Positions 1,489 to 63,065 of a DNA stretch of 64,000 bases are shown here, piece by piece. Source of the DNA: Brachycybe producta (Eukaryota > Arthropoda > Diplopoda > Playtdesmida > Andrognathidae); assembly GCA_036925085.1 (NCBI GenBank), contig JAUPFP010000001.1:3146001-3210000 (forward strand). Direction: 5' to 3'. The notes under the pieces are model-generated. The model saw only the letters and a program-made list of their open reading frames with translations. It searched no databases and was not told where the DNA came from. A program made the translations under genes and the position numbers. Every line of letters begins with the position of its first letter. The stretch's first letter is position 1.

Positions 1489-1679
1489 ACAGGCAATTAG
1501 AATACGTGATAAACAGACGTTTGCTCCGCCCCTTTTCATGACTAAACGGAACTTCTAATTGGTTTGTTGTGCTGTTCATGTGACGTCAGACTACATAACC
1601 AAACCAATTAGAAGTTGCGTTCGTCATAAAAAGGGGGTGGAACAAACGTCTGTTTATCCCGTTTTCTATAATTGCCTAT
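1489..1679. mobile_element. Family A palindromic MITE, copy 1
   Basis: Long imperfect palindrome beginning ACAGGCAATTAG and ending ATTGCCTAT, with TGACGTCA at 1581-1588 near the centre. A direct repeat TCTCTTAC flanks it if the element is read from AGGC to GCCTA. Arms hold CCAAT and CCGCCC motifs. Confidence 0.75.
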
Positions 1680-1938: not shown

Positions 1939-2148
1939 ACAGGCATTTAGAAATCGGGACGAACACAAGTTGGCTCCGCCCTTTTTATGATGACCGGCAA
2001 CTTCTAATTGGTTTGTTGTGTGGTTCGACGTTGAAAAGGGCGGAGAGCATGTGACGTCAGACTACATAACCAACCAATTAGAAGTTGCCGGTCGTCATAA
2101 AAAAGGGCGGAGCCAACTTGTGTTCGTCCCGATTTATAAAATGCCTGT
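1939..2148. mobile_element. Family A palindromic MITE, copy 2
   Basis: ACAGGCATTTAGAAATCGGG to the mirrored ATGCCTGT end. The 9-bp target duplication AGTTATATT lies on both sides. TGACGTCA is at 2052-2059; GGGCGGAG and CCAAT motifs are in both arms. No coding capacity. Confidence 0.85.
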
Positions 2149-5300: not shown

Positions 5301-8300
5301 TTGTGAGTCTTGAGTGGAAACATACCTTATGAGTGGAGAGACTAAACAAAAAAATCTCGAAAAATTATTTATGAGTTGGTTATTTTTCTAAATTTAATGA
5401 TTCAATTAAAACTACAGCACAATGAAAGAAGCACATTGAAAAAAAAAAATGGCAGAAAACATCTCAATTAAAAATGGCTGCCAATTTATACGCCTACAAA
5501 ACTAGACATTGTCATCAATTTTAAATCATTTTAATAAAAATGAGAAGAAAAAAAAAACTGTCGAAATGAAATTTGAGAGTAATTAAAACATTTAGCAAGA
5601 AAAATTAACCAAAAAAAAAATATGCATGTTTTATGCTATGTCAACACAAGAATACTGATTTAGATTATTCAAATAATTTGCATTTCTATTTTAAAATGCG
5701 CTTATAATTGGTTATAGACACCAGCTCATGTGTATGTGTTAAGTGTCAATCTGCGGAATCAGTCAAGCTGCAGATTGCCTAGCCAATTTGCAAAACAACC
5801 AACGTGCTAGTGTAGTGAATCTGCAAAATTCAATACATTATAGGTGTTGAATTTTGCAGATTCACTAGCAGGTTGGCTGTTTTGCAGATTGTCTAGGCAA
5901 TCTCCAGATTGACTGATTCCACGGATTGACATATGCATTTTTATAATTTTTTAGTAAATAAACTTATTTACATAATCTAACCTCAGGTGTTTTGAGCTGA
6001 CAAGTAATATACAAACTAAATACTAATTGTCAACTTAAGATGAGTGGTTGGAATATTTAAAAATTACAATATCATAATTTTTTTGATGTTTTGATTGGTC
6101 GTTAGACATGCCATTTTTTTTATCTTACCCTGCCCTTTTTTCTGTTTGCCCTGCCCTTTGTTATTTTCACCTAAGTATACTTTCATTCCCATGATGGTAA
6201 TGGATGTGGAATGTGGGAAGGGAAGTGGACATTTGCCCTATTACCAATTGCTCGAATGAGACAAAGGTTTTTAGGGCAAATGTCCATCTAGAACAAATTA
6301 TTTTTAGGACAACTGTCTGTAGGACAACTGTCTTGTTGGGTATATGTCTCTTTAGGGCAAATGTCAAGACACCCATTTTACATATTGTAAAATATTAATG
6401 CAGCTTTCAATAAATAAAACACCACCTTTACCTCATTTACATAATCTAACTCGGTAATCTTGAGCTGACAAACTATTTAATTCTTTAATAGGCTTTGAAA
6501 TCTCTTGTCTACTTTATGAGGTTTTTTTTTCTACTTATTAATGTGATCATTTTTTGTTTTGTTTGTTGACATTTTTTATAAACAATCTTCCAAAATAAAG
6601 ATGACCGGCCTCACAACAGACAAATGTCGTCAGCTTATTAACAAGTACGAACCATCGGATGAAGCTCGAAAGAATGGTCAGTTGCATATTGATGGCTTTA
6701 GTCAGTTTCTACTGTCCGAAGAATGTGACATCTTCGATCCGTGCCACCGTCAAGTATGTCAGGAAATGAGTCATCCATTGACCCATTATTTTATCTCAAC
6801 ATCTCATAACACGTATGTTAATTAGGTTAATTAATTACCTAAGTACTATGCTCATCAGAGACGTAATTAACTAATTTTTTGCGCCCGAGACAAGAATAAA
6901 TCTGGCGCAATCTTCAGAGAGGCGCCCAACAAGTTTTTGCAAAATTTGCTAAAAAAATGTCCTTTTTTTCTTATAAATTACAGTAAGGTATCATAAAAAT
7001 AACTACATTTCTCAGTAGTTTGGCGTTTGTTACAATTTTTCTTGGCTTATTCTAAATGGCCGTTTATTTAGTTTGGCGTCACAACCATCACTGATGTCTG
7101 CGCCCGAGGCAAGTGCCCCAATCGACCGCCTGGTCCTATAGTTATGGCTCTGATGTCCACAAATTTTATATTAATAATAAACAAGAATAATTAAATATAT
7201 TAATTAGATTTTTGTCTTCTTTCTAACAAAGATACCTTTTGGAGGACCAATTAAAAGGACCATCAAGTGCTGATGGTTATGTTTGGGCTTTGAGCAAAGG
7301 TTGCAGATGCCTTAAAGGTTATTTTTTTTTGTGTGTGTTGGTTTTCGTAGTATTTGTTTTCTCGTTTATTTATAAATTAATGACATAATTATACAAATTG
7401 AAACAAGAGAATTGCATATTTTTTTTTTATTTGTTGTTGCTTCTAGTGGATTGTTGGGATGGTAATGACGAACCAGTGGTTTACCATGGGAACACTTTAA
7501 CGAGTAGAGTGTCATTTCGCGAAGTTGTGGCTGTTGTCAAAGCCAACGCCTTCAGAGTATCAAGGTAATCAAAAACATATTATTATTACTTGGTACAAAT
7601 TCGAAAAGTACTTTTTTAATGTCCTCATTTTTTTTTTATTATTATTAAAAATCTAAAAGGTTGTCTCAAATGTTTCAAAATAATTTGTGTTCTGCTTATG
7701 ACAACTTTTTATGATTTTAATGTACATTTTTTATGATTGTTTGCGATTCGTGTTGATTATCGTGTGTTTTATGTCTTGACAAAATGGTTTTATTGTCTGA
7801 AGATATTTTAATGTTAAAGAAATTAATGTTAATATAAATTTTTATTGATAGTTAATTTAGTGGCATACACCATTTAGTTATCTGCGTTTTGTTATCTATT
7901 TAGCTATTTTTTTTTAATGCGGGTATTTAACGGAAATTTTGATAAAATAAAATGACATGCTTGAGTATATGATAGTTGTTTCACAAGCAATTAGAAAACG
8001 GGATGAACAGAAGTAAATGCAATTGGAAATCGGAACGAATAGAAGTTGGCTCCGCCCTTTTTATGACGACGGGCAACTTCTAATTGGTTGGTTATGTAGT
8101 TTGACGTCATATGCTCCACCCTTTTCAACGTCGAACCACACAACAAACCAATTAGAAGTTGCCGGTCGTCATAAAAAGGACGGAGCCAACTTGTGTTCAT
8201 CCCGATTTCTAATTGCCTGTACAGAAGTTGGCTCCGCCCTTTTTATGACGAACGGCAACTTCGAATTGGTTGGTTATGTAGTCTGACGTCACATGCTCCG

Positions 8301-9150
8301 CCCTTTTCAACATTGAAGCACCACACAACAAACCAATTAAAAGTTGCCCATTCGTCATAAAAAGGGCGGAGCCAACTTCTGTTCGTCCCGTTTTCTAATT
8401 GCCTGTGTTGTTTCTGGTTCATCTTATTGACATTAGCAGTGTTCGGAAATTAAAGAAAAAGCTATTATCTGTAAAGAAAACAGAAAGGTAGCATCCGAAA
8501 TGTAGACTAAACTAACTCCACATGTTTTCAAAATGGCCTCCTCATATGAGGCTTTCTAGTTTATCATATTTGAGAAGAAAATGGCGAAATCAAGTACATT
8601 CGGAAATTCTGTTTTTTTTTTCTTCTTTCTTTCAAGTATTGTCTTGAAGACGTGGCTCCAAATTTTACCTTTCCTAGATTTCTGTACAGCACAAAAAATT
8701 AGTCTTTAGTTTCCGAAAACAGCCATTTTTTCTTAATAGTTTTACATTTTATAAAATTTCTCAATTTATTATCACTTCATTAAAGAAAATTCTTTTGTTG
8801 TTTATTAAAAAAAATCAAGGTATCCATTGATTATTCATCTGGAAAATCACTGCAACATTGAAAATCAACGTTTTGTCGCATTCCACTTGAGGTCTGAATT
8901 AGGTGACCTTTTGTATGTCCACTCAAATGAAAGTGGTCAGAGGTCAGTTTGTGAAATGTCACCTGAAGAGATTGGAAGTAAAATCATTTTAAAGGTAAAT
9001 GTTTATTATTAAAATAAAAAAAAGAGAGAGAAAGAGAGAAAGAGAGAGAGAGCGAAAGAGAGAGAGAGAGAGAGCAAGAGAGAGAGCGAAAGAGAGCGAG
9101 AGAGAGAGAGAGAGAGCAAGAGAGAGAGAGAGAGCAAGAGAGAGAGAGAG

Positions 9151-15100: not shown

Positions 15101-16829
15101 TGAAATTGAAATGAAAGGAGTAAAAAAAGGAACAAACGACGCGCATGCGCACACCAGAGAAAATGAAAAACTCATTTTTTCTTTCAAATATAAAAAGGGG
15201 AAGGGTTTATCACGGGCAACTGTGCCCAGCATTAGAATTTCTCTTCCTCCGCCCTTTTATGAACGTCATCAATTTCTAATTGGGTTTGTTACTTGGTCTG
15301 ACGTCATAAAAGGGCGGAGGAAAAGAAATTCTAATGCTGGGCACAATTGCCTGTGAATTTCGCTCCCGTCATTTATGACGGGTTACCCCACTAGTTAAAA
15401 ACAAATGTTATTTATTTGTTTGTAGGGTGTTCTGCCAAGTGTTGTCGATGCTACTACGATGAGGGCAGCAACTGATGCTGCAATGACCGAACTTCGCGAG
15501 GAATTTGGATTGGGAGAAACTGCAAACATTAAGCAATGTCTTAGAGTTTTACTAACTAGGGTTGCAAATGGATCCGAACCTATCACATTAAATGTGGTAG
15601 AAAACTCTGGGGTAACTTTTAAGAAAAAAAAACAAAAATTCATCATTGAAATTCAATTTAGTATATATGAGAACCAATCATATTCAACTGGTTACATGAC
15701 AGTTTCCTGAATTACAAGTCAAAGGACCCGTATCGACACATTTGAGCAAAACCGTGAACCTCTTCGATAAGGTTTTACCCTTAAGGGCACTGCAATTTTA
15801 TAGATATTTTTGGTTATTTTTTTTCCTTCAAATTCGTGTTTTTATTTATTAAAAACAGGCGTTGCAAGAGTTTCGGAACGTGACAGACAATTCAGGTACT
15901 CACATAGAAACGGTAAATAAAGAGTTCTCGTAAATTGTCGAAATGTTCGAATTGTTTTTTGTCAAACTGTTAATGGTTTCAAACCTTTTTTTTTTTTTTT
16001 TTGGGTCCGTGCCAGTTACGTAAAGCTTACGAGGCTCTTCTAGAACTGTACGAAGATTTGGAAACGCTTTGTATACAAGCAGGTCTCAAAGGCAAGAAAT
16101 TAAATAAGGTATATGGTAGTGTGAACTAGCCTCTCTCTCTCTCTCTCTCTCGATCGTACAGCCGACTTATAGCTGTTTTTCGTATCGTAATTGGCTTGAA
16201 TCGTGTAGGCACTTGATACGTATGCTTGGAACATGCAGATTTTAAGAGGACAAATCGATCTCTTAGATAGTTGCCGTAAAGAATGCAAGCAAGCTGTAAC
16301 TCAGGTGATGTCATACCGCCGCTTTTTTTTTTTTTTTTAAATATTTCATCAAATTTTAACTCAATTTTTACAACAAAATTTTTGATTAAAACTGTTATAA
16401 TTTTAGTTTGAACAATTTTTTTTTTTTTTTGATTTTTTAACAAATTTTTTTAGAAACTTTGAATAAAATCTTTACGAAAATTAAATCATGATTTATTAAA
16501 AATCAAAAATAATTAATATTATAATTATAATTATTATTAATATTATTATTTTTATTTATTTATTGTTTGTCCAACAGATGCAATCTTCGACTGATTCTCA
16601 TTTGCTAAGTAGTTTTAACAAAAACAAAGATCGTAGTCCAGTAGTGACTCGTGATCGTCCTCGACTGGCCCTTCAAGATAAGGGACAGTTTCCGGACTGG
16701 GTGGGAACGTTGCCTCGTAGTCCAACGTCACCATCGGATGGTCAACCACGAGGAATCCTCAAGAATAAAACCCCATCGACTGCGTCTTTAACTCGTTCTC
16801 CACCGTATTGCCACCTCGAACCGAGTTAA
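2317..16829 (+). CDS. PLCL: Phospholipase C-like protein (PLCL/PRIP type), 24 exons, 5' end missing
   Basis: Exons: 2317-2466, 2558-2764, 3540-3603, 3697-3799, 4839-4951, 5094-5157, 6601-6812, 7232-7317, 7447-7564, 8820-8994, 9512-9598, 10350-10452, 11656-11835, 12349-12527, 13098-13236, 14344-14490, 14566-14666, 14749-14826, 15426-15611, 15703-15771, 15859-15912, 16016-16108, 16239-16304, 16578-16829. They join in frame to about 1008 residues, against roughly 1100 in vertebrate PLCL1. Visible order: PH (1-119), EF hands (120-290), X box (from [10 protein letters not shown], about 296-431), acidic linker [11 protein letters not shown] box (470-614), C2 (about 615-745), C-terminal tail. Whole stretches match PLCL1/2, such as [11 protein letters not shown] and [18 protein letters not shown]. 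In the family these are catalytically weak or dead PLC-fold scaffolds binding inositol phosphates, phosphatases and GABA-A receptor machinery. Catalytic His303, His347, Glu381, Ser502 and Arg536 are present; Lys333 replaces a conserved Glu. The exon 3/4 junction is the least certain, and exon 14 needs a GC donor. Confidence 0.95.
2775..3468. repeat. Duplicated family H element in PLCL intron 2
   Basis: Two direct copies (about 2775-3060 and 3085-3370) of a unit containing CCGGAAACTAAAGAAAAAGC-like ends, AAGAAAGCAAGCATCTAAAT and GAGAAGAAAATGGCAAAATC. The mirrored right end CTTTAGTTTTCGGATTGCAG occurs once, near 3445. Related copies lie at 8433-8725, 47153-47890 and 50310-50478. Confidence 0.65.
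3926..4452. other. AT-rich intron sequence, nothing recognised
   Basis: Runs of T and A with repeated TGCATATTT words on both strands; no frame or element ends that I can support. Confidence 0.5.
4453..4779. mobile_element. Family D foldback element
   Basis: Begins GCTCGGATTTTTATGC and ends with the complement GCATAAAAATCCGAGC. The inner arms carry the AGAGGCTAGAAT/CTAGCCTCTAACC pair. It lies in the intron before PLCL exon 5. Confidence 0.7.
5744..5930. mobile_element. Foldback element C in a PLCL intron
   Basis: GTCAATCTGCGGAATCAGTC at the left is mirrored by GACTGATTCCACGGATTGAC at the right, with further paired blocks inside (GCAGATTGCCTAG and CTAGGCAATC). About 187 bp, no frame, single copy in this window. 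Confidence 0.7.
7983..8406. mobile_element. Family A MITE interrupted by a second family A MITE
   Basis: The outer element starts ACAAGCAATTAG and ends AATTGCCTGT, with target duplication GTTGTTTC on both sides. It is split at about 8014 by the complete inner copy 8015-8220; ACAGAAGT occurs on both sides of the inner copy. The outer TGACGTCA is at 8284-8291 and the inner one at 8102-8109. Confidence 0.85.
8433..8725. mobile_element. Family H element
   Basis: GTTCGGAAATTAAAGAAAAAGC at the left (first 20 bases GTTCGGAAATTAAAGAAAAA) is mirrored by TTAGTTTCCGAAAACAGCC near 8702-8720. It shares the GAGAAGAAAATGGC block with the copies at 2775 and 47153. Confidence 0.55.
9018..9186. repeat. (GA)n microsatellite
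   Basis: About 165 bp of nearly pure GA dinucleotide with occasional AAAG and AGCAAG interruptions, starting 24 bases after the donor of PLCL exon 10. It produces spurious Arg/Glu-rich and Ser/Leu-rich open frames on the two strands. Confidence 0.95.
9198..9415. mobile_element. Family E foldback element
   Basis: GTTAGAAACTAGAATGAGTA at the left is mirrored by CCTTCTAGTTTTCTGAAAC at the right; the internal arms are TTTCATGTTGATAT and TGTCAACATGAAAAT. Confidence 0.65.
9667..10274. mobile_element. Foldback transposon with 20-bp subrepeats
   Basis: The outer ends are inverted copies (GAGCCCTATAAAGAACAGGC left; complement of GTCCTTTACAGGGCTTC right). The right arm is a tandem array of a 20-bp unit, GTCGAGATTAAAGTCGAAAT, from about 9890 to 10240. 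An inner palindrome at 9738-9872 pairs GCCATGTTAATTATGCCATG with its complement. Terminal repeats built of short direct subrepeats are typical of foldback (FB-type) elements. It lies between PLCL exons 11 and 12. Confidence 0.75.
10870..11035. repeat. Dispersed repeat shared with 18040-18240
   Basis: Both segments contain GGAAATGAAGACA.TCTTGTC followed by TTGCAGAC, a TGCAATGA block and CACTCTGAAT. The ends are not resolved. Confidence 0.45.
11070..11430. repeat. Family M repeat, two tandem copies
   Basis: A unit of about 185 bp with GAATGGGGAGGTTGAGGAGC, then TTTAAAAACTAGAAGG and TTTCATTCATTTCTACTGAG. Single and triple copies occur at 27425-27600 and 44280-44815. Confidence 0.65.
11861..12276 (-). 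mobile_element. Deleted mariner element in PLCL intron 13
   Basis: Termini TTAGGTTGGTAGGAAAATAA and the mirrored CCTACCAACCTTAA, running into ATTGCGGTTTTTTG, closely resemble mariner inverted repeats of the Hsmar1/cecropia kind; TA flanks both sides. On the minus strand a short frame ends with [12 protein letters not shown], which looks like the extreme C-terminus of a mariner transposase. At 416 bp it lacks the catalytic domain, so it is a non-autonomous deletion derivative. Confidence 0.8.
12735..13027. mobile_element. Family D foldback element
   Basis: AGGGCTCTGATTTTTATGC to GCATAAAAATCCGAGCC, in the intron between PLCL exons 14 and 15. A CTAAT word occurs just outside each end. Confidence 0.7.
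13308..13475. mobile_element. Family E foldback element
   Basis: TTGTTAGAAACTAGAATGGT is mirrored by ACTCTTCTAGTTTCTAAAAC. A second copy follows at 13556-13796. Confidence 0.65.
13556..13796. mobile_element. Family E foldback element
   Basis: GTTTTAGAAACTAGAAGAGT at the left and ACTCTTCTAGTTTCTAAAAC at the right are exact complements over 20 bases, so this copy is among the best preserved. Confidence 0.75.
13854..14178. repeat. Left inverted arm flanking PLCL exons 16-18
   Basis: Reads GTGGGGTAACCCGTCATAAA at its outer end, then GCGCATGCGCGTCG, a pyrimidine-rich middle and TTTATATAAATTTC before a short (CA)n. All of these recur in inverted orientation at 14858-15391. No coding capacity. Confidence 0.85.
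14858..15391. repeat. Right inverted arm flanking PLCL exons 16-18
   Basis: Reverse complement of 13854-14178, starting from (TG)n inside and ending TTTATGACGGGTTACCCCAC outside. It is longer because a family B MITE (15212-15355) and about 50 further bases lie between GCGCATGCGC and the outer end. Confidence 0.85.
15212..15355. mobile_element. Family B palindromic MITE inside the right arm
   Basis: CTGTGCCCAGCATTAGAATT is mirrored by AATTCTAATGCTGGGCACAA; TGACGTCA is at 15299-15306 and CCGCCC/GGGCGG pairs are in the arms. Related to the copy at 20559-20753. Confidence 0.75.
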
Positions 16830-18495: not shown

Positions 18496-19739
18496 TCAGT
18501 TCTCTGAATTCGACATTTCCGTTATCCGAGCATCGATTTCGTCCATCGAGCGTAAAAGTGAAGCAAGATCCTTTTCATCCAGTTCAAAGTTGAAACACTG
18601 TTTTTGGGTTTTTCCTTGTGGATTGCATTTCATCTGAACGACGGCAACGGGAGCCAGAGGATCTCCTCCTCCTCCACCACCACCACGATCCGAGCTCCGA
18701 CTTGTCGATCGGCCTTGATGAGTCGGAACTTCGATCCTCCAACTGAGCCCCTCGAGAGTTGCCGTTCCGAATGCAGACCTTTTTACGATAATCTCGTGGA
18801 TCTTAGACCTGTGAATCTTCCAAAATCTAGCCAAGGTCTTCGCTTGTATTTCGTTGATTCGACCATCTCTTCGTTTCGTCTGCGAAGTTAAGAAAGCTTC
18901 GGTTTGCTTTAAGTCCATGTCTGACGAAGCCATTGTCTGGAAAATAATAATAATTCTTTTATTGTGCCACTTAAAGGTTGCCTATACAACATCTAACATA
19001 AGTGCAAGGTCAAAAAATAGAACAAACTAAAAAAATACAAGTAAATTTATAATACAAAAGCGTATTAAGTTCCGCGTATTGGACCCGTTGTAATTCAATT
19101 CAATTCAATTCAATTCAATTAGATACACCTGCAATCAGCTTGAAAGCCATGTGGCAGGGAGGGATTGCTCCCAATCACGACTGATTGTCATTGTTTAAAA
19201 ATAAGACATCATCACGAAATTGAAATCGTCCTAACAAAGAACTATTCACAGGAAGAGAATTCCATAGTCTTAACAACATTAGGAATAAAAGACCAAAAAT
19301 ATGCATCAGTCCTAGCCATTAATTCTTTGAAAGTCTTTGAATGCCCAAATCTACCTTTACGAGGATTTCTAGTTAGTAAACCATTAAGCAGGGTAATGTT
19401 ATCATCAGACAGCCATTAATTAGGAAACAAAATATCCTAGCTATGTCAACTCGAGATTACAGCTTGGATTATTGTAAATGAAACACGTGACCTCATTAAC
19501 ATAATCCATCCTGTCATCTTGAGTTGACAAAAGTGGGAAATATACAGAGGGAAATATATGCAAATCACCCGTATTAGTTGTGACATTTTGTCCAGAATCT
19601 GATTAAAATCATTCAAAGAGAAATTTGGATAACATTCAGACTTTAGTTCTTCATTTGGTATTTCCGCATTTTCGTAATCAATGCGGAAAATTCCGTTTAA
19701 AAGAATCAAAAGAGCGTTTTCGTCCACCTCCTCCGCCAT
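18496..19739 (-). CDS. COMMD1: COMM domain-containing protein 1
   Basis: Two exons: 19739-19569 and 18936-18496 (minus strand), joined in phase 0 by a GT-AG intron into 203 residues; human COMMD1 has 190. The N-terminal helical half (LLILLNGIFRIDY...QILDKMSQLIR) and the segment SSDMDLKQTEAFLTSQTK align with COMMD1 without gaps across the splice. The C-terminal COMM domain follows (GLSWRIEV near residue 115 to the end), with VAVVQM and a FELDEKDLASLL helix. COMMD proteins form the Commander complex, which recycles endosomal cargo with retriever; COMMD1 is also linked to NF-kB turnover and copper handling. One oddity is a run of seven glycines within the COMM domain (DRGGGGGGGDP), in a surface loop by position. 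The start is the first Met of exon 1. The gene is head-to-head with INTS7, and its intron holds a LINE fragment. Confidence 0.97.
19085..19430 (-). mobile_element. 5'-truncated LINE end in the COMMD1 intron
   Basis: On the minus strand a frame reads RNPRKGRFGHS and MARTDAYFWSFIP, then after a one-base frameshift RLWNSLPVNSSL. ARTD.Y.WSF.P....WNSL is the typical C-terminal end of non-LTR retrotransposon reverse transcriptases. It ends in about five ATTGA repeats (19097-19120), a LINE-like 3' tail. A related fragment lies at 30954-31390. Confidence 0.7.
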
Positions 19740-20558: not shown

Positions 20559-20753
20559 AAGGCAATTGTACCCAGCATTGAAATTTCTGTTGCTCCGCCT
20601 TTATGTAAACGTCATCCATTTTTAATTGGTTTATTACTTGATTTGACGTCACACTTTCCGCCCTTTTCAGTTTCTAATTGGTTTGTTACTTGGTCTGACG
20701 TCATAAAAAAGGGCGGAGCAAAAGAAATTGTAATGCTGGGCACAATTGCCTGT
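20559..20753. mobile_element. Family B palindromic MITE upstream of INTS7
   Basis: Ends AAGGCAATTGTACCCAGCAT and AATGCTGGGCACAATTGCCT, flanked by the 9-bp duplication AAATATAGA (20550-20558 and 20754-20762). It has TGACGTCA twice (20644-20651, 20696-20703), CCAAT motifs and GGGCGGAGC. It lies about 150 bases before the INTS7 start codon. Confidence 0.85.
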
Positions 20754-20906: not shown

Positions 20907-23900
20907 ATGGCTTCAGTGACAGCCAGACTCAGCGTTCTCGGTGAAAACGGATATGGTGAACCGGAACAGGACGCAAATTCGGCGCTTACCGAATTGGACA
21001 AAGGTCCAGTATTATTAATAATAATAATAATAATAATACTAAGTCAACATAAGTTGACTGGTTCAAATATCTTAATGATTGAAAGAGGTGCAGGAGGGGG
21101 AGGGGCTCTTTATAGGGCGAAGTTGAACGAAATTAATCATTTTTTGTAAATTTTAAAAAGAATTCCAAGAATTGTTTTAAAAATAAGCAAAAATTTATCA
21201 ATTTTTATAAAGAAAACTAAATGAAAATCGTGAATTTTAAAAAAAATGTAAATGAAAATTGTGAATTTTAAAAAAAAAAACTAAATAAAAAAAGTGAATT
21301 TTTTTTTAAAAAATGTAAATAAAAATCGTAAAGTTTTTTAAAAAAATGTAAATAAATTATTTAAATCGTGAATTAAAAAAAACTAAATAAAAATCGTGAA
21401 GTTTTTAAAGAAAAAATAAATAAAAATTGTGAAGTTTTTTTTAAAAAATAAATAAAAATCGTGAAGTTTTTTTTAAAAAACTAAATAAAAATCGTGAAGT
21501 TTTTAAAGAAAAAATAAATAAAAATCGTGAAGTTTTTTTTAACAAAAATGTAAATGAAAATCGTGAATTTTTGCATAAAACTAAATGAGATTTGTGAATT
21601 TTTGAAGAAATCTAACTGAAAATCGTGAATTTTTTTTAAAAAAAAAAAACTAAATAAAAATCGTGAATTTTTGCATAAAACTAAATGAAAATTGTGAATT
21701 TTTTAACAAAAAAAATCGAAAAAAAATTTGGATTTTTTTTTTTAATTTTGAAGAATTTCAGAAATTGTTTTAAAAAAAAATCGTCAATTTTTAAAGAATA
21801 CAATTCGTCATTTAAAAAAAAATAAATAAAAACATTAAAATTAGAATCATGAATTTAAAGAAAAACTTAAAAAATAAATGGTGAAATTCGTTAAAAACTC
21901 ATAAAATCTTGGAATTCTTTTAAAAGAAAGTAAAAAAAAAAATCATTAATTTTTTTTAAAATATTGAATAATTGAAAATTGTGTTTTTTTCTTTTAAATT
22001 AGGTCTGCGTTCGGGAAAGATTGGCGAACAGTGCGAGGCCATTGTTCGTTTTCCTCGTCTCTTTGCCAAATATCCGTTCCCGATCTTGATCAATTCCGCT
22101 TTTCTCAAGTTGGCCGATGTTTTTCGACTCGGGTATTCCCATTGTTCTGATTTAAAACATTCCGAGGATTAGAAAAAAAGAGGAAATCGGACTCAAATGT
22201 GATTTTTATTTCGTTTTTTTGTTTCAGGACAAACTTTTTAAGACTTTGCGTCTTGAAAGTAACGCAACAAAGTTTCAAACATCTCGACAAGATTCTGAAC
22301 GTGGACGAATTCGTTCGACGAATCTATTCGGTCATTCACAGCAATGATCCTTTAGCTAGAGCTCTTACTCTAAGGTATAAAATAACAAAAACACCCTGGT
22401 TACGACATGTCAACTCGAGATAACTGGTTGTAATATGCAAATTAGTTTGCAAATATCGTATTTTATGTCGTATTTTATGTCGTTTGTCGTAATATTATGT
22501 CGTATTGTTGTTTATTGGTCTATTTTTTTTAGGACTTTAGGTAGCATAGCTTATATTATTTCCGAACGGCGTAATGTTCATCACACGATACGTGTAAGCC
22601 TCGACTCTCACGATGCGGTCGAATTGGAGGCAGCCATTTTTGCTACGGAGAAATTTTCTTCTTGTTCGAAGTAAATTGTTTTTTTTTTGAAGATGTGGCG
22701 ATGATATATTGTTTCGATAAACCATTTTTTAAAAATATTTCAGAACATTTGCTTCAAACATATGCGAGAAAGTGAGTCTTATGATCGAAGGTTTGGCGAC
22801 ACCTGTCGACATGAAGCTCAAACTCATTCCGATCTTCCAATTCATGCATCACGACGCGCAAACGGCAGCTACAGTCAAGTTTTCTCCGCCGTTGTTGTTA
22901 TCACAAATAAAACAGAACTTTTTGTTTATATTTAATGCTAATTTCTGTTCGTAGGTACGGAAGTTGTGTACCGATTTACTGCCGATGTATCCGGCTCGAC
23001 AGTTCGTGTTGATAACTCTGAACACGTTAACTCGGTTGGCATCGGCTTCTACGATCGACGTTCCGGATCAAGTTTCTCTTCTTATTCAGTATTTGATTTC
23101 CGATCCGAGACGTCCGGTCAAGTGCCTAGCTCTTAGAAACCTGAAATTTCTGGCCGAAGTCGGAGCTCATATGTGGACAGAGTCCGACATTAAGGTTCGA
23201 AAAAAGTGAACAAAAAAAAAAAAGAAAGCCGTAACGATATTTATAAGCTTTTTTTTTCGTTTAAAAACAAAATGTCAAATTTCGCAATCAATTTTCAGGC
23301 TGTTTTTGATTTTGCCGTCGAAACTCAATACAAGGAACTGAAATGTTCGTCTCTCGGTGTTCTTATAATGTTAGCGAAAACTGTAGCTGTTGGAAAGTTT
23401 GACATTTTTGCTGGTCAGAAAATTTTAATTAAAAAAGCTGCTTTTAAAGGTGTCTAGAGAGACAATCCAGAGTTGTGTACGTGTTATGAAACGAGCTCGA
23501 TTTTGTGGTTCCGAAAGTTGCTCAAATGGCTGTAGCGACAAAACCTTAAGAACGTCTTAAAGATCAATTTTGCGGTTCCAGAATTACTCAAAAATGGCTC
23601 AAACCACCAAACGGGAATTCGAAAACTTTACGAAAATTTGTTAAAACCTGAAGAACATATTAAAGAATCCAAACCATTTTTCACAAAGCTGAAAGATGTT
23701 CTCGAAGAACGAAATGTATTTAGCAAAATGGACCTTTTTTTGATTGCAATTAACATGGGTCGAGCAAATTAGAATAATTTAAAATTGTGTAAAATAAAAA
23801 CCCGTTCGAATATTGCAACCCGAAAGACCTTAAAATTCAAGAAGCGATTGCAACTTTAATTATCGTTCAAAACGCAATTCGAGAAGCGATTTGTAGTTGG

Positions 23901-31912: not shown

Positions 31913-34900
31913 TTAAGGTAAACAATAGGTAACAGGAGGTGGGAAAGGTGGGTAAACAATTGGGTACTTAGTTGGAGGAGGTGGGTATTTGGTTGGAGGT
32001 GGATATTTGGTGGGAGGAGGATATTTGGTTGGTGGTGGATATGGAGGGTATTTAGTTGGTGGTGGGTATTTCGTAGGTGGTGGGTAAGGAGGGTATTTCG
32101 TAGGTGGTGGGTAAGGAGGGTATTTAGTTGGTGGTGGTGGTGGTGGAGGAGGAGGAGGAGGTGGATAATATGGATATTTTATGGGTTGTGGTGGTGGATA
32201 AGGTGGATATTTTGTCGGAGGTGGGTATTTCGTAGGTGGTGGGTATGGAGGGTATTTCGTAGGTGGAGGATATGGTGGGTATTTGGTTGGCGGTGGGTAC
32301 TTAGTAGGTGGTGGATAAGGAGGGTATTTAGTTGGTGGTGGTGGTGGTGGTGGAGGAGGAGGAGGTGGATAATATGGATATTTTATGGGTTGTGGTGGTG
32401 GATAAGGTGGATATTTTGTCGGAGGTGGATATTTGGTTGGAGGTGGGTAAGGTGGATATTTTGTAGGTGGAGGATACTTGGTTGGAGGTGGATATGGTGG
32501 ATATTTCGTAGGTGGTGGAGGTGGTGGATATGGATATTTAGGTGGTTGATATTTCATGGGTGGAGGAGGTGGATATTGTATTGGTTGATATTTGGTAGGA
32601 GGTGGAGGTGGAGGTGGATATTTTGTAGGTGGTGGATATTTAGTAGGTGGTGGATACTTAGTAGGTGGTGGAGGAGGAGGACGATATTTTATGGGCGGTG
32701 GTGGAGGACGGTATTTCATGGGTGGTGGTGGCGGAGGGTATTTCATGGGTGGTGGTGGAGGAGGATATTTCATGGGTGGTGGTGGAGGAGGATATTTCAT
32801 GGGTGGTGGTGGAGGAGGAGGAGGAGGATATTTATTTGGTGGATATGGAGGATATGCAATTGGATAAGATGGATATTTTGTCGGTGGTGGCGAGGGAGGT
32901 GGCGGTGTCTGATATTTTGTCTGCGGAAATATGATGCCTCTTCCGGCCACACCATAATTGTTAACGCAGAAATAACCCTTAAGATATGGATCATATCCGC
33001 AACAACCACCGCCTTTTTGACAGGCTTTGCTTGTAGTACAGGACTGAGGTCCTGAAGGTGTTGTCGATGTGGCCTTACACGAGTAAGAGTCGTAACGACA
33101 AGTTCCCCATGGTGAGGAAGTTCCAGGCAAACAGCAACCGCCATAAAGACAATCACTGTCTTTGTAACACTTATAAGGCAATGGTGGGTATTGAATGCAC
33201 TGACGAGGGTCATAGCCTATTGGAGCACATGTTGCTGGTGACCCTTTGGGTCCAGGTTTGCAACATTCTGTTGGTTTGCATTGAGAATTGGCTGTACATG
33301 AACCCTACAAAGATAATGAAAAGTAATTTAAAACAAAGTTAATTTAAAATTAATTAATATTAAATCATTTTTCGTGCTTTTTTTTGTTGAGTGGTTTGAT
33401 TTAAAAAAGATAATTTCAAGTAATTCACAATTTTGTTTTCTATAAATATAATTTTTTATGCAATTTATAACAAAATTTTCTTCTGTTTCAAACAGCAGAA
33501 AGAGTAATTCTTGATAAATTTATTCAAAATCAAATGTGGTGCAACATTTAATTAGAAGTGAAATTTCTAGTTAAGGTAATTAAGCCAATCGTATCTTTTA
33601 GGTTTGCTTGAAATACACAATAAATTAGCAATATTTTATGCAAATTTATGCAACCGTAAATTGAATTGATTTTATTTTAAACATTGTTCCCAATTTCCCC
33701 ACTCCATTCCCTCAAAAACTCATTGTCTTCTAGTTAAAAATTACTTAATGTAGACAATGTTAGAAAGTAATTTGCAATAAAAGTAATGAATTACTGTAAT
33801 TAATTTTTTTTTAAATTAATTACTACTAATTAGTAATTCACCACGTTACTTTCGAAACTTTATAATTTGTTAATATAATTAATTACCTTTTCTAATAAAA
33901 AAAAATTTCAATTACTTTTTAATTACGTTTTTCAAATTACGTTTGTTTTTGTCTTTTTGTTCTCAAACTATTGAGGTCGAAGGTTACCTATTCCTGGATT
34001 TTTTTGCTAAAATAGCCTGATGTACATCTGAGTGTGACTTTCTGCACTTTTTTTTAATCTATGATTTGTAATTATAAAGTAATTTAAATGTTTTTTTTTT
34101 TGCAAAAATACATAATTCTAATTAATTTCTTTTTAAAACTTAATAATTGTATAATTACTGGTAATAAGTTTTTCAATGATCTAATTAGTAATTATATAAT
34201 TATTGAAAATACTAGACAAATTAATTTGTTTCAACACTGGATATAAATATAAACATTTTAATAAATAAATACTAGAAAATCCACCAAAAACGAGTTCGTT
34301 TTTCTATGACATTTTCAGTAAAGTTTATTAATTGTAGTTGTAATTATTTTTTTTACTGATGCAATTACTAATTAGTGATTGAAAATAAAATTACCCCAAC
34401 ATTGTGTGGCTATAAATAAAAAACATTTAATTATATTTTTCTAACAAAATACTAGAAAAGTGCACCAAATTTAGTAAAAATTTATTAACTGCAGTAAGAA
34501 TTAGTTTTTCATTGGTGTAATTATAGTATTTTTAATTAATTACTTTTACAAGAAATTTAACTCAACATTTGATACTATTTGAAACAATTTAATTCTAATT
34601 TTTCTAAGAAATAAAATACTAGAAAATTCACCAAAAATGAGTTAGTTTTTCTATAACAACAGTTTCAGTAAAATGTATTAATTGTAGTTGTAATTAATTT
34701 TTTTTTACTGATGCAATTACTAATTAGTAATTGAAAAGAAATTTACACCAACATTGTGTGGCTATAAATAAAAAAATATTTAATTATATCTTTCTAACAA
34801 AATACTAGAAAAATGCACCAAAAATGAATTTCTTTATCAATTATATAACATTTTTAGAAAAAATGAAATTAACTGTAGTTAGAATTAGAATTTTCATTGC

Positions 34901-40059: not shown

Positions 40060-41205
40060 TTTACACCGAAAAATAGCAAAAAATAACATTGTTAGTAGCA
40101 AAATATTAATAATAAAGTGTCTTAGACTGTTTTGGCAAATGTCGATAACAAAATGCTAATAACATCTTTTTTGACAAAAATGTTGGTAGCATGTCGGCAA
40201 AAAACTGATCCACGAGTATATAATGTTATTAACAGTGTTGACACAACAGAAATAACTTGCTAGTAACATCCTTCGATCAAGATATCGCCTCTAGAAAGCA
40301 GTCGAAAAATTTCTGATATTAACAAAGTTATTATCAACATGTTAATGGAAAAAAATAACAAATGCCAACAGAAAAATGTTATTGACAAAAGTTAATAGCA
40401 AAATGTTAATAACATACGTTAATTAACATTTTTTTTTTATCTGTTTTGATAAATGTCGACAAAAATGTCGGTAACATGTCTCGACCGCTTTGAGAGACAG
40501 GCAATTAGAAATCGGGACGAACAGAAGTTGGCTCCGGCCTTTTTTTATGATGAACGCAACTTCTAATTGGTTGGAATTATGTAGTCTGACGTCACCATGC
40601 TCTCCACCCTTTTCAACGTCGAATCACACAACAAACCAATTAGAAGTTGCCGGTCATCATAAAAAGGGCGGAGCCAACTTCTGTTTGTCCCGATTTTTAA
40701 TTGCCTATCCTTGAGAGAGGTTGCAAATTTCTGCTAAGTATATTAACAAAGTTAGCAACAATGTTATTGACATGTTAATGGAAAAAAATAAATAAATGCT
40801 GAAAGCAAAATATTTATTGATAAAAATTGATAGCAAAATGTTATTAACATTTTTAGAGACTTTTAACAATGTTATTAACAAAGTTTTGTTGATAATAATT
40901 GATAGCAAAATGTTATTAACATTTTTAGAGACTTTTAACAATGTTATTAACAAAATTGTGTTGATAAAAAACAAAATGTTATTAACATTTTTAGAGACTT
41001 TTAACAATGTTATTAACATTTCTAGAGACTTTTAACAATGTTATTAACAAAATTTTGTTGATAAAAATTGATAGCAAAATGTTATTAACATTTTTAGAGA
41101 CTTTTAACAATGTTATTAACAAAATTTTGTTGATAACAAAAGTTAATAACATTTTCTAGGTAGATTTTTTAATATTTGTTAAAAAAAAACATTGCTAATA
41201 ACACG
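40060..41205. repeat. Repeat-rich element with tandem core, hosting a family A MITE
   Basis: Starts GTTGGTTTTACACCG and holds many TGTTATTAACATTTTT words. From 40820 to 41130 there are four direct copies, 60-85 bp, of TTAGAGACTTTTAACAATG plus TTATTAACAAA. Related in sequence to 37855-38335. Confidence 0.6.
40497..40708. mobile_element. Family A palindromic MITE
   Basis: ACAGGCAATTAGAAATCGGG to ATTGCCTAT; flanks CTTTGAGAG and CCTTGAGAG match at 8 of 9 positions. TGACGTCA is at 40587-40594. Confidence 0.85.
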
Positions 41206-41495: not shown

Positions 41496-41703
41496 ACAAA
41501 CAATTAGAAATCGGGACGAACTTCAGTTGGCTCCGCCCTTTTTATGACGACTGGCAACTTCTAATTGGTTTGTTGTGTGGTTCGACGTTGAAAAGGATTG
41601 GAGCATGTGACGTCAGACTACATAATCAACCAATTAGAAGTTGCCGGTCGTCATAAAAAAGGGCGGAGCCAACTGAAGTTCGTCCCGATTTCTAATTTCC
41701 TGT
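41496..41703. mobile_element. Family A palindromic MITE
   Basis: Ends ACAAACAATTAGAAATCGGG and TTTCTAATTTCCTGT; the exact 9-bp duplication GTTAAAACA lies on both sides (41487-41495, 41704-41712). TGACGTCA is at 41608-41615. Confidence 0.88.
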
Positions 41704-42325: not shown

Positions 42326-42781
42326 TTCATAATAATGTTTCTAAATGTTTGCTTCACATTTTTTCCGTTAAAAAACCCACAAAAAAAAAAGGTTACCATA
42401 TTTTTAGAAAATCCCATAAAAAGTTTATTTTAAAAGATACCATATCATAAAAAGAAATACTCTTTTGCACCTTAGCTTTGGACCATAGTTAATTAATGGA
42501 AGTGATTCTGGAATTTGAAACCTTGGCATTAATGAGTTTAGCCTAATTTAATTGTTAGACATTTTTTGTCTAATGGAAATTAACATGAAAGAATGGGCGC
42601 ATTTTTTTTTGTTATTCAAAAACAAAATTGAAAATAATTTAAAATAATGACGAAAAAATATGAAACACCTTAATTTATCATTTCAGATGAGAATAAAGTT
42701 TGTTTGATGAAAAAAAATCAAACATAAATCGAGTTCAAACTAAATTAATTAACTGGGAATTTTTTTTGATTAGATGTTAAT

Positions 42782-42988
42782 ACAGGCAATTAGAAATCGG
42801 GACGAACACAAGTTGGCTCCGCCCTTTTTTATGACGACCGGCAACTTCTAATTGGTTGGTTATGTAGTCTGACGTCACATGCTCCGCCCTTTTCAACGTC
42901 AAACCACACAACAAACCAATTAGAAGTTGCCGGTCGTCATAAAAAGGGCGGAGCCAACTTGTGTTCGTCCCGATTTTTAATTGCCTGT
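42782..42988. mobile_element. Family A palindromic MITE, best preserved
   Basis: ACAGGCAATTAGAAATCGGG to TTTTTAATTGCCTGT with the exact duplication GATGTTAAT on both sides (42773-42781, 42989-42997). TGACGTCA is at 42870-42877, flanked by CCAAT and CCGCCC boxes on both arms. Confidence 0.9.
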
Positions 42989-43453
42989 GATGTTAATTTG
43001 GTTTTAACGCCATCTAGTGGCAACTTTTTTTAAATTATTTTAAAGCGTTTCCATCTTAAAATATAATATAACAATACAAAGGTAATAAAAGTTCTTGAAA
43101 AAGTTGAAGAAAAATCACTGAACCAATAGACAAACTAATTTAACTATTTATAAAAATAAAAAAAAGTACTTAAACGCCATTGTTTTTTTTAAAAGAAGTT
43201 TTAAAATGCAGTGATGCAAAACAACTTACTGAAGTCTTATTATTCCTTAGCAAAAGCAAACTTTGTCCTTAGACAAAAATGCAAATACAATTCAATAGTA
43301 AAATACACATAGAGATCTACTGTGTAATACAAATGAAACAAAAAGTTGTAGAATTGTTTCAGTCATTTAAGAATAGACAATTAAATCGTTTTTGGTTCGT
43401 AAATTTCTAATTGCTAATTAAAAATTACTATCCGAACTTAAGGACAAAAAAGT
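42989..43453. other. Intergenic sequence, nothing recognised
   Basis: AT-rich DNA with no element ends or coding signal that I can support. Confidence 0.5.
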
Positions 43454-61600: not shown

Positions 61601-63065
61601 TTTTTTCCGATAAATTGTCATTATTAAATAAAATCACGTTCAATTTTTATAGAATTTCCACACGAAAAAAAATGAAAATTTGATAATTAAATTTTCACAG
61701 GCAATTAGAAATCGGGACAAACAGAAGTTGGCTCCGCTCTTTTTTGATGACGACCGGCAACTTCTAATTGGTTTGTTGTGTGGTTCGACGTTGAAAAGGG
61801 CGAAGCATGTGACGTCAGACTACATAACCAACCAATTAGAAGTTGCCGGTCGTCATAAAAAAGAACGGAGTCAACTTATGTTTGTTCCGATTTCTAATTG
61901 CCTGTAAATTTTCATGTCAATGAAATGCAAAGTAAATTCCAAAGTGGAAATTAATATGAATGGAGAAAGAAAAAAACCTAACAAAAAAATTTACATAAAA
62001 TTATTTGAAGCGTTTTAAAAACTGGTTAATGAACCAATGAGTCAACCAACTTTTAAAATAATTCATCAAATGGTTCAGAGAATATTGGAATTATTTTAAA
62101 ATTATTACCTATTGTAAAAAGCAGAAATCCTAATCCAACTATAATATAAGTGAAAACCTAAGAAAAAATTAATAATATAAGTTGCTTAAAAGTTTGCACA
62201 AAATTCATAAGAAATATGATGACTAGGGATCGGATTTTTATGCAAAATCAAACAAATGTTTCTCAATTTAATGCTGAAGTGCCAATTGTGAAATCATCAT
62301 CATCATCATTAGAGCAACTGTATCTATGGTTTTTTTTTCTAATCAAAAGGCTGGTTAGAGGCTAGATGTCTGGTTACTATCAGTTGTCAACTAAAGTTCT
62401 AGCCTCTAACTAGTGTTTTTTAATTGAAAAAAACAAAACAATTATTGGTTGATTATAAGAGGAATTGTTACTTCACAGTTGGATCTTAAGGGCCACAGAT
62501 TGAGAAACATCTGTTTGATATTGCATAAAAGTCCGAGCCCTGATGATAACTGAAACATTTTTTTTATAAAACGACATAATTTTTATTAGTAATAATTAGG
62601 GTTCAGAATTATATGAAAAATCAAGCCAGATGTTTCTCAATCTTTGGCCCAAGTGCCAATTGTGAAGAATCACTCTCCCATTTAGATCAACCAACAATTA
62701 TGAATTTTTTTTTTCTAATAAAAAAAACACTGCTTAGAGGCTAGAACTCTCTAGTTGACAATTGGTAGTAACCAGACATGTAGCCTCTAACCAACCTTTT
62801 TTTGTTAGAATAAACATAATTGCAGTTGCAACAATGATGATTATTACTTCACAATTGACAATTGGGCCACAAATTGAGAAACATTTACTTGATATTGCAA
62901 AATAATTTTCTTTAAAAAATAATTTTACAAAAATTGACTAAATATAATAATAATTATATTAAATAATTGAATAATTTTTACCAGATTTCCAGACAAGAAT
63001 TGTTTGACGGTGACAGAGGTGGCCAGCACCCATGCCATATAACCAATTAGAGTGCAACCAATGAG
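55665..63065 (-). CDS. Tetraspanin, eight exons, N-terminal exon(s) outside or unseen
   Basis: Minus-strand exons: 63065-62982, 62157-62109, 61487-61435, 59040-58966, 58858-58790, 57644-57498, 57395-57309, 55781-55665. They join in frame to 226 residues plus stop, all with GT-AG introns. The visible part starts in TM1 (LIGCTLIGYMAWVLA). Next come the first loop, TM2 (YIIVGLGFLLF, then GLLGWVGA), TM3 (MASVLAIAFEVGGIL) and the large loop with FHCCGYTGPKEF, DDTCYEI and HGCGNKLLD. TM4 follows (VSIIAGTGLLQILGCVSAIYVI), then a basic-acidic tail ending NGVYAS. CCG plus two further loop cysteines is the tetraspanin hallmark (two disulfides); NAT in the loop is one N-glycosylation site. Tetraspanins organise membrane microdomains with integrins and other partners. 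The usual Cys after TM2 (GCCGA in many members) is Trp here. Subfamily cannot be assigned safely. Confidence 0.93.
55800..57260. repeat. Degenerate satellite in the last tetraspanin intron
   Basis: About 20 variants of GGCAACACTGTAGAGTAGAA followed by TAACAAAAAATTAAAAAA or a related line, in a higher-order pattern of about 300 bp. It fills nearly the whole intron between exons 7 and 8 of the visible set. Confidence 0.88.
57700..58740. repeat. 28-bp tandem array in a tetraspanin intron
   Basis: About 30 copies of a unit with AAAATTGAAAACTTTGAAAG and AAAAATTTT, almost filling the intron between 57644 and 58790. Confidence 0.9.
59145..59640. repeat. Tandem 131-bp units derived from family E
   Basis: Three to four near-identical units containing GAAAGTGTTTTAGATACTAG, GATCATATGTAGATATCG and AAAATAAACTTTTTAATAAA. 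A diverged fifth unit is at 59735-59830. Confidence 0.85.
60398..60706. mobile_element. Family K element in a tetraspanin intron
   Basis: ATACCTTGTACACACACATG to GTGTGTGTACTAGGTATTA; imperfect inverted ends; nearly the same as 52822-53129. Confidence 0.7.
60836..61380. mobile_element. Cluster of family E elements
   Basis: Left ends at 60840 and 61042 (GTTAGAAACTAGAA) and right ends at 60945, 61190 and 61345 (CTTCTAGTTT or a variant) indicate two or three adjacent copies, partly decayed. Confidence 0.6.
61697..61905. mobile_element. Family A palindromic MITE in a tetraspanin intron
   Basis: ACAGGCAATTAGAAATCGGG to CGATTTCTAATTGCCTGT with the 8-bp duplication AAATTTTC on both sides. TGACGTCA is at 61810-61817. 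Confidence 0.87.
62224..62541. mobile_element. Family D foldback element
   Basis: TAGGGATCGGATTTTTATGC to GCATAAAAGTCCGAGCCCT, between tetraspanin exons at 62109-62157 and 62982-63065. Confidence 0.75.
62597..62900. mobile_element. Family D foldback element, right end lost
   Basis: TAGGGTTCAGAATTATATG at the left, inner arms intact (CTTAGAGGCTAGAACTC, TAGCCTCTAACCAAC), and GAGAAACATTTACTTGATAT near the lost right terminus. Confidence 0.65.

Follow-up and report, generated by a model that had tools for sequence, protein, structure and literature searches.

The DNA around position 42782 of the stretch analyzed here raises the question of whether a mobile palindrome carrying CRE, CCAAT and GC-box words supplies its host with ready-made promoters or keeps these words for its own use. 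The whole stretch, referred to below as the window, is 64,000 nucleotides long and corresponds to G000:C1:3146001-3210000 in a genome of 295.3 Mb and 442 contigs.

The palindrome at this position (Table 1) belongs to a family, designated A, with a consensus of 206 bp, and comparison of the consensus with its reverse complement revealed arms that are identical to position 75 on each side and match more weakly beyond. The unit begins with ACAGGC and ends with GCCTGT, the word GATGTTAAT on either side of it forms a perfect 9-bp duplication, and its arms contain ATTGG at 42851 and CCAAT at 42916. A second word, CAATTAGAA, starts 4 bases inside the tip and recurs in family A at the CCAAT block of each arm. 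It is the longest repeated word of the family A consensus arm, a length reached in 5 of 500 shuffled arms; in the related family B, the longest such word had just 7 bases and lacked significance (119 of 500 shuffles). We take the CRE to be a site for CREB/ATF, the CCAAT word for NF-Y and the GC box for Sp1, and factors of these types are widespread in animals.

Table 1. Positions in the window of the palindromic units, the parts of the unit at 42782 and two neighboring genes
Feature	Position	Strand	Remark
Family A unit	42782..42988	+	207 bp palindrome
Target-site duplication GATGTTAAT, left	42773..42781		flank of the 42782 unit
Target-site duplication GATGTTAAT, right	42989..42997		flank of the 42782 unit
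Tip word CAATTAGAA	42786..42794	+	recurs around the CCAAT words
GC-box hexamer CCGCCC, left arm	42819..42824	+	
TTCTAATTGG (reverse CCAAT)	42846..42855	+	best-conserved block of the element
CRE octamer TGACGTCA, core	42870..42877	.	
Further CCGCCC	42884		core of the 42782 unit
CCAATTAGAA, right arm	42916..42925	+	
GC-box hexamer GGGCGG, right arm	42946..42951	+	
Family A unit	1489..1678	.	old copy; target-site match 8/9
Family A unit	1939..2148	-	target-site duplication AGTTATATT
Family A unit (7983-8014 + 8221-8406)	7983..8406	+	interrupted by a second family A unit (8015-8220)
Family B unit	15212..15354	+	inside a larger element (13852-15393), in its right terminal repeat
Family B unit	20559..20753	+	two tandem CCAAT-CRE modules; target-site duplication AAATATAGA
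Family A unit	40497..40708	+	target-site match 8/9
Family A unit	41496..41703	-	target-site duplication GTTAAAACA
Family A unit	61697..61905	-	no GC-box hexamer; 8-bp target-site duplication
COMMD1-like first coding exon, frame (neighbor)	19446..19739	-	COMMD1_N, E 4e-9
INTS7 first coding exon (neighbor)	20907..21005	+	phmmer to Integrator subunit 7 chains, E 6e-4

All ten positions listed in the original prediction proved to be copies of two related palindromes, eight of family A and two of family B, although the description of their contents held only in part. The entries at 7983 and 8015 are both family A units but constitute a nested pair rather than independent positions, with an outer 8-bp duplication, GTTGTTTC, and an inner one, ACAGAAGT. 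The CRE, which had been placed in every copy, is present in all but the 32-bp left piece at 7983, the CRE of that unit lying in its right part, at 8284. The mirror order of the motifs is a consequence of the inverted repeat and not an independent fact, and both B copies depart from it: that at 15212, for which CCAAT had been claimed in each arm, has a single ATTGG and no CCAAT, and that at 20559 has two ATTGG words and two CREs, all in the same orientation. GC boxes, expected in every copy and in both orientations, are missing from some: neither hexamer is found at 61697, only CCGCCC at 1489 and 8015, and only GGGCGG at 40497.

Because the ten are copies, a word common to them counts as one observation, and the rarity of the motif combination was accordingly assessed for one ancestor. 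All three motifs occurred together in 1 of 5,000 dinucleotide-shuffled palindromes, a figure that overstates the surprise because the motif set was picked after looking; singly, the CRE occurred in 25, the GC box in 157 and CCAAT in 1,035 of the 5,000. This rarity favors the possibility that every insertion brings a ready-made promoter or enhancer, active in both directions, for use by host CREB/ATF, NF-Y and Sp1-type factors. The choice of motifs after the fact, together with the expectation that any ancestral 8-mer recurs in copies, favors instead the possibility that the words were chance content of the ancestor, amplified with it and useless to element and host alike. The likeness to vertebrate core promoters that had been drawn for the motif set does not apply here, the genome being that of an invertebrate as judged from COX1, whose reading frame contains 10 TGA and 4 AGA codons and stays open when translated with the invertebrate mitochondrial code; cox2 lies directly downstream of cox1, as judged by eye, and from known gene orders the host might tentatively be a chelicerate or myriapod. 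COX1-like stretches with mitochondrial-code stops were also observed in large nuclear contigs (G000:C1:12697416-12698753 and C17:4027703-4029047) and are likely nuclear copies of mitochondrial DNA.

The mobility of the palindrome was borne out, in a family far larger than the window suggested, with thousands of copies, many of them with 9-bp duplications. A search of its own genome with the 42782 unit, in which 40 of 875 candidates were scored, returned the unit itself and at least 47 further matches, some of which are second arms of one unit. Genome-wide counts gave 10,600 family A ends (first 26 bases, up to two mismatches), 6,926 family B tips (up to three mismatches) and 15,825 occurrences of the CCAAT-14bp-CRE module ATTGGTTNGTTANNTNGTCTGACGTCA (up to two mismatches), the reversed control being 0 in each case. 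This module, with its fixed spacing, is common to families A and B.

Target sites were compared for 68 units cut from the window and from fetched loci. Exact duplications of 9 bp were found in 19 of these units and of 8 bp in seven, and 32 of the 68 showed a 9-bp flank match with at most one mismatch, whereas shuffling of the right flanks left on average 0.46 such units (maximum 3); in 25 of the 68, no duplication reached the required score. The asymmetric core was oriented evenly, 34 versus 33 among 67 units after one core-less unit was dropped. Unit pairs with a spacer of about 40 bp at two loci, L037 and L049, share one outer 9-bp duplication with one mismatch each, and the unit pair at L119 (251-639) is flanked on either side by ACAGAAGTT, the target word of the nested unit in the window. 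Insertion of one unit into another at a shared target word, ACAGAAGT(T), was observed at 7983-8406 of the window and at L119:216-818, and it is possible that this word is a preferred self-insertion site.

The 206-bp consensus, inverted arms, 9-bp duplications and 10,600 ends are features of a MITE, and a length of about 206 bp leaves no room for a transposase gene. Family B units were in addition found inside the terminal repeat of a third, larger repeat at four of six fetched loci and in the window element at 13852-15393. The latter spans 1.5 kb, has inverted ends (TAGTGGGGTAACCCGTCATAAATGACGGGAGC...) and belongs to this third, very abundant repeat, whose terminus GTAACCCGTCATAAATGACGGGAGC occurs 7,025 times genome-wide with up to two mismatches. 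Because of this location, part of the family B copies may have spread as passengers of the larger element.

Members of the Mutator (MULE) superfamily have long terminal inverted repeats and create target-site duplications of 9 to 11 bp. With 9 bp the predominant duplication length in the 68 units and consensus arms as long as those described above, we provisionally assign the palindromes to this superfamily on the basis of duplication length and arm length. Duplications of 8 bp are characteristic of the hAT and P superfamilies, and here exact 9-bp duplications outnumbered them; Merlin elements, with an IS1016/IS1595-type transposase, create duplications of 8 to 9 bp. We think it improbable that the palindromes belong to Merlin or another superfamily with 8- to 9-bp duplications and that the Mutator/foldback label is wrong. 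The seven exact 8-bp duplications are consistent with such an origin, as is the finding that, among the MULE genes with fetched flanks, none lies between correctly ordered ACAGGC ends, but the excess of 9-bp duplications, the long arms and the presence of MULE transposases argue for Mutator.

These transposases were identified as 21 matches to PF10551 in the same genome, of which 17 fall in open frames 694-1,088 codons long. One MULE lineage, on contigs C13 and C28, is bordered by inverted ends of 70 bp (ACTAGCGTCTGG...) and shows a 9-bp duplication that is exact at C28 (AAAGAAGAT) and matches at eight of nine positions at C13. This is the sole MULE with defined ends, and its tips, ACTAGCGT, are unlike ACAGGC. 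Giant near-perfect palindromes with a MULE transposase frame in each arm were observed at L173 (C2:4230500-4240000) and L174 (C38:893500-902000), with arms of 4.5 and 3.6 kb that are 99.8-100% identical, and a third such pair is present on C5 by its coordinates; those at L173 and L174 are either recent foldback elements or assembly artefacts.

Transposase genes on C89, C43, C32 and other contigs were considered as possible autonomous members whose native promoter would be the palindrome, after the right tip of a unit seemed to lie upstream of a transposase gene. This candidate was rejected, since the ends face the wrong way and at least three of the units there are separate insertions with their own target duplications (GTTATAAAA at L109, ACAAATTT for a C-type unit at L106 and a less clean 7/9 match at L126). 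Thirteen upstream flanks of MULE genes contained 11 units in 21.3 kb, with a unit in seven of the 13, and nine downstream flanks contained three units in 16.5 kb, with a unit in three of the nine; both MULE loci on C89 have units nearby. Since units also cluster around other units (21 extra units in 76.3 kb at 27 A-centered loci), no conclusion was drawn from the higher upstream density.

Sequence variation was analyzed in an alignment of 105 full-length family A copies, with truncated copies and identical sequences excluded, 24 of which had been brought in by a CRE-bearing query. The CRE was retained in 86 of these copies, both CCAAT words in 84, a GC box in both arms in 58 and the full motif set in 37. 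The test was repeated on the 81 copies outside the loci obtained with the CRE-bearing query, leaving out 27 bases at each end, and a variant shared by at least three copies was counted as a change carried by amplifying lineages, rarer (private) variants as changes that arose after insertion.

Among the 81 copies, the CRE showed no shared variant over its eight columns, which was reached by 13 of 145 windows, itself included, while its private mutation rate was not low (133 of the 145 windows were equal or lower); with a threshold of two copies, it ranked 19th of 145 for shared and 129th for private variants. Only AACTTCTAATTG and TGACGTCACATGCTC formed runs of at least eight columns free of shared variants at the three-copy threshold. 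The 15-mer of lowest divergence in the element, taken from the alignment of 105 copies, was AACTTCTAATTGGTT, around the reverse CCAAT, and among the 81 copies the private rates of the two CCAAT words were mildly low, with 36 and 22 of 148 windows at or below theirs. The GC boxes were not conserved, ranking 121, 108 and 92 of 147 for shared variants and with 137, 43 and 104 of 147 windows at or below their private rates.

Counts by alignment cell in the 105 copies gave 0 of 810 shared-variant cells in the CRE, compared to 430 of 11,896 at unmarked inner positions (339/10,701 outside CpG and 91/1,195 in CpG), and 17 of 810 private-variant cells, compared to 185 of 11,896 (172/10,701 and 13/1,195, respectively). 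The conservation signal for the CRE is modest, and the alignment columns are not independent of one another. An initial analysis, of 67 copies and made without the split into shared and private variants, had found CRE positions outside CpG at background (10/380 versus 190/6,395, p 0.88) and those in CpG better than background (2/126 versus 63/765), with CCAAT also better than background (7/659) and GC boxes outside CpG worse (43/780).

Conservation of the motifs against the decayed arms had been put forward as a test of promoter function, and the outcome does not favor it: the CRE is privately mutated about as often as other positions and the GC boxes lack constraint. We read this as amplifying lineages having kept CCAAT and CRE, with inserted copies losing the CRE as they do other positions, a pattern that points to use by the element. 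Selection on the transposon, for end recognition and possibly for an ancestral promoter in the terminal inverted repeat, fits these data better than retention by the host, and the sampled copies bear no sign of host constraint. The rank of the CRE, reached by 13 of 145 windows, and the unconstrained GC boxes would also be expected of words that are incidental to both parties, but the CCAAT block is the least diverged part of the element, and families A and B have both retained the CCAAT-CRE module and the CCGCCCTTTT words although their sub-terminal parts have diverged, making chance content a doubtful account. The proposal that motifs serve the transposase, offered originally as an alternative, is better supported for CCAAT, which is part of the most conserved block and lies inside the word repeated at the tips.

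A position compatible with host use was found between two genes in the window. The family B copy at 20559-20753 ends 153 bp upstream of the INTS7 start codon (20907) and lies 820 bp from the start codon of a COMMD1-like gene on its other side, at 19739 on the minus strand, such that its two CCAAT-CRE modules are located between head-to-head genes, where a direction-neutral promoter would sit. The first INTS7 exon alone gave no Pfam match, and later exons match INTS7 Pfam models. This copy is the single candidate for exaptation, one case found without a background rate. The word CGCCATCTAGTGG, which we take to resemble the CTCF core motif, and near variants of it were observed beside elements and gene starts, at 43008-43020 of the window, just upstream of the COMMD1-like start codon and at loci L106, L107 and L117. 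A 463-codon frame at 31913-33304 on the minus strand, which encodes a cysteine-rich domain and, after it, a long KYPPP repeat rich in proline, had no Pfam match.

The INTS7 copy and the fixed-spacing CCAAT-CRE pair common to both families are consistent with host promoter activity, but several observations argue against it as a general property of the insertions. Apart from the mutation pattern of the CRE and GC boxes, the nested pair at 7983-8406 lies inside a phospholipase C gene, between exons at 6547 and 12213 and away from the gene start; the copy at 15212 lies beyond the last exon of this gene detected with Pfam and was not counted as intragenic. The CRE octamer TGACGTCA is also common in the genome anyway, occurring 35,739 times compared to 7,349 for the reversed octamer, an approximately fivefold excess. 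The idea that most of these octamers derive from the palindrome family was rejected, as only one of 40 sampled sites was in a unit and 39 were outside, although this sample was confined to the first 325 kb of contig C1, a region with few units; by count, the modules would explain no more than 44% of the octamers (15,825/35,739). We therefore consider it unlikely that each insertion provides a ready-made promoter or enhancer, a claim that the conservation pattern does not support and that may hold at single copies such as that at INTS7.

In sum, we propose with moderate confidence that the palindrome is a high-copy, non-autonomous MITE of the Mutator/foldback kind whose arms keep words that serve the transposon. 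A MULE-type transposase encoded elsewhere would bind the long inverted arms and cut at ACAGGC/GCCTGT; its putative recognition word is CAATTAGAA, which is found both at the tips and around CCAAT. The retention of CCAAT and CRE in lineages that amplify would reflect their use by the element, CCAAT presumably as part of the recognition word and the two together plausibly as what is left of a parental promoter in the terminal repeat, comparable to that of maize MuDR. Single copies may be bound by host factors, and one that inserts at a gene start, as at INTS7, may then be used.

This model has a close counterpart in maize Mutator (MuDR/Mu), which shares the 9-bp target-site duplications and long inverted ends, the ends holding transposase binding sites and promoters and many members being non-autonomous (PMC3310237, PMC2774946). 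MULE terminal repeats in maize are described as combining a transposase site of about 32 bp with promoters for the transposase genes (PMC3310237), and by analogy the family A arms may have the same division of labor. Unlike the maize elements, the palindromes consist only of arms and a short core, reside in an animal and have no ACAGGC-ended transposase among the fetched flanks, and their transposase binding and promoter activity are putative.

MULEs are reported to be rare in animals, with a median of 0 in 100 genomes, and for the foldback-type element FB4 of Drosophila the long ends and a duplication of 9-10 bp are taken as arguments that it is a MULE (PMC8277862). The nematode family Tm1 resembles the palindromes in its foldback structure, duplications of 8-10 bp (mostly 9) and MITE-like majority, and it includes a MULE-type transposase (PMC3169594). 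Both FB4 and Tm1 differ in tips and sizes, and Tm1 is further set apart by its 39 copies in M. incognita, compared to thousands here, and by 13-15 bp repeats in its arms (PMC3169594); Tandem Repeats Finder detected no tandem array inside 42782-42988. The double units with one outer duplication at L037 and L049 resemble plant MULEs with tandem, or multiple, terminal inverted repeats (PMC3310237), but whole palindromic units are doubled here, and some of the doubles, such as that at 7983-8406, arose by simple nesting and have an inner duplication.

For the INTS7 copy, a parallel is provided by MER20/MER39 at human decidual prolactin, a transposon-derived, upstream, cAMP-responsive alternative promoter whose use was demonstrated (PMC1891148), whereas the INTS7 copy is known by its position. 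The arrangement described there also differs in that the CRE is in the LTR and the DNA transposon brings C/EBP sites (PMC1891148). A search of one open-access library found no paper combining TGACGTCA with miniature inverted-repeat elements, and among the matches listed, judged by title or the start of the abstract, none described the CRE/CCAAT/GC-box set in transposons.

Thousands of Mutator-like MITEs with a conserved CCAAT-CRE module provide the numbers needed to ask whether such words are retained by the element or by the host, and the split into shared and private mutations is a cheap test that can be applied genome-wide. We regard it as a long shot that some of the more than 15,000 fixed-spacing CCAAT-CRE modules seeded across this invertebrate genome by a MITE family, the double-module copy at INTS7 among them, now serve as direction-neutral promoters responsive to cAMP and join separate genes in one program.
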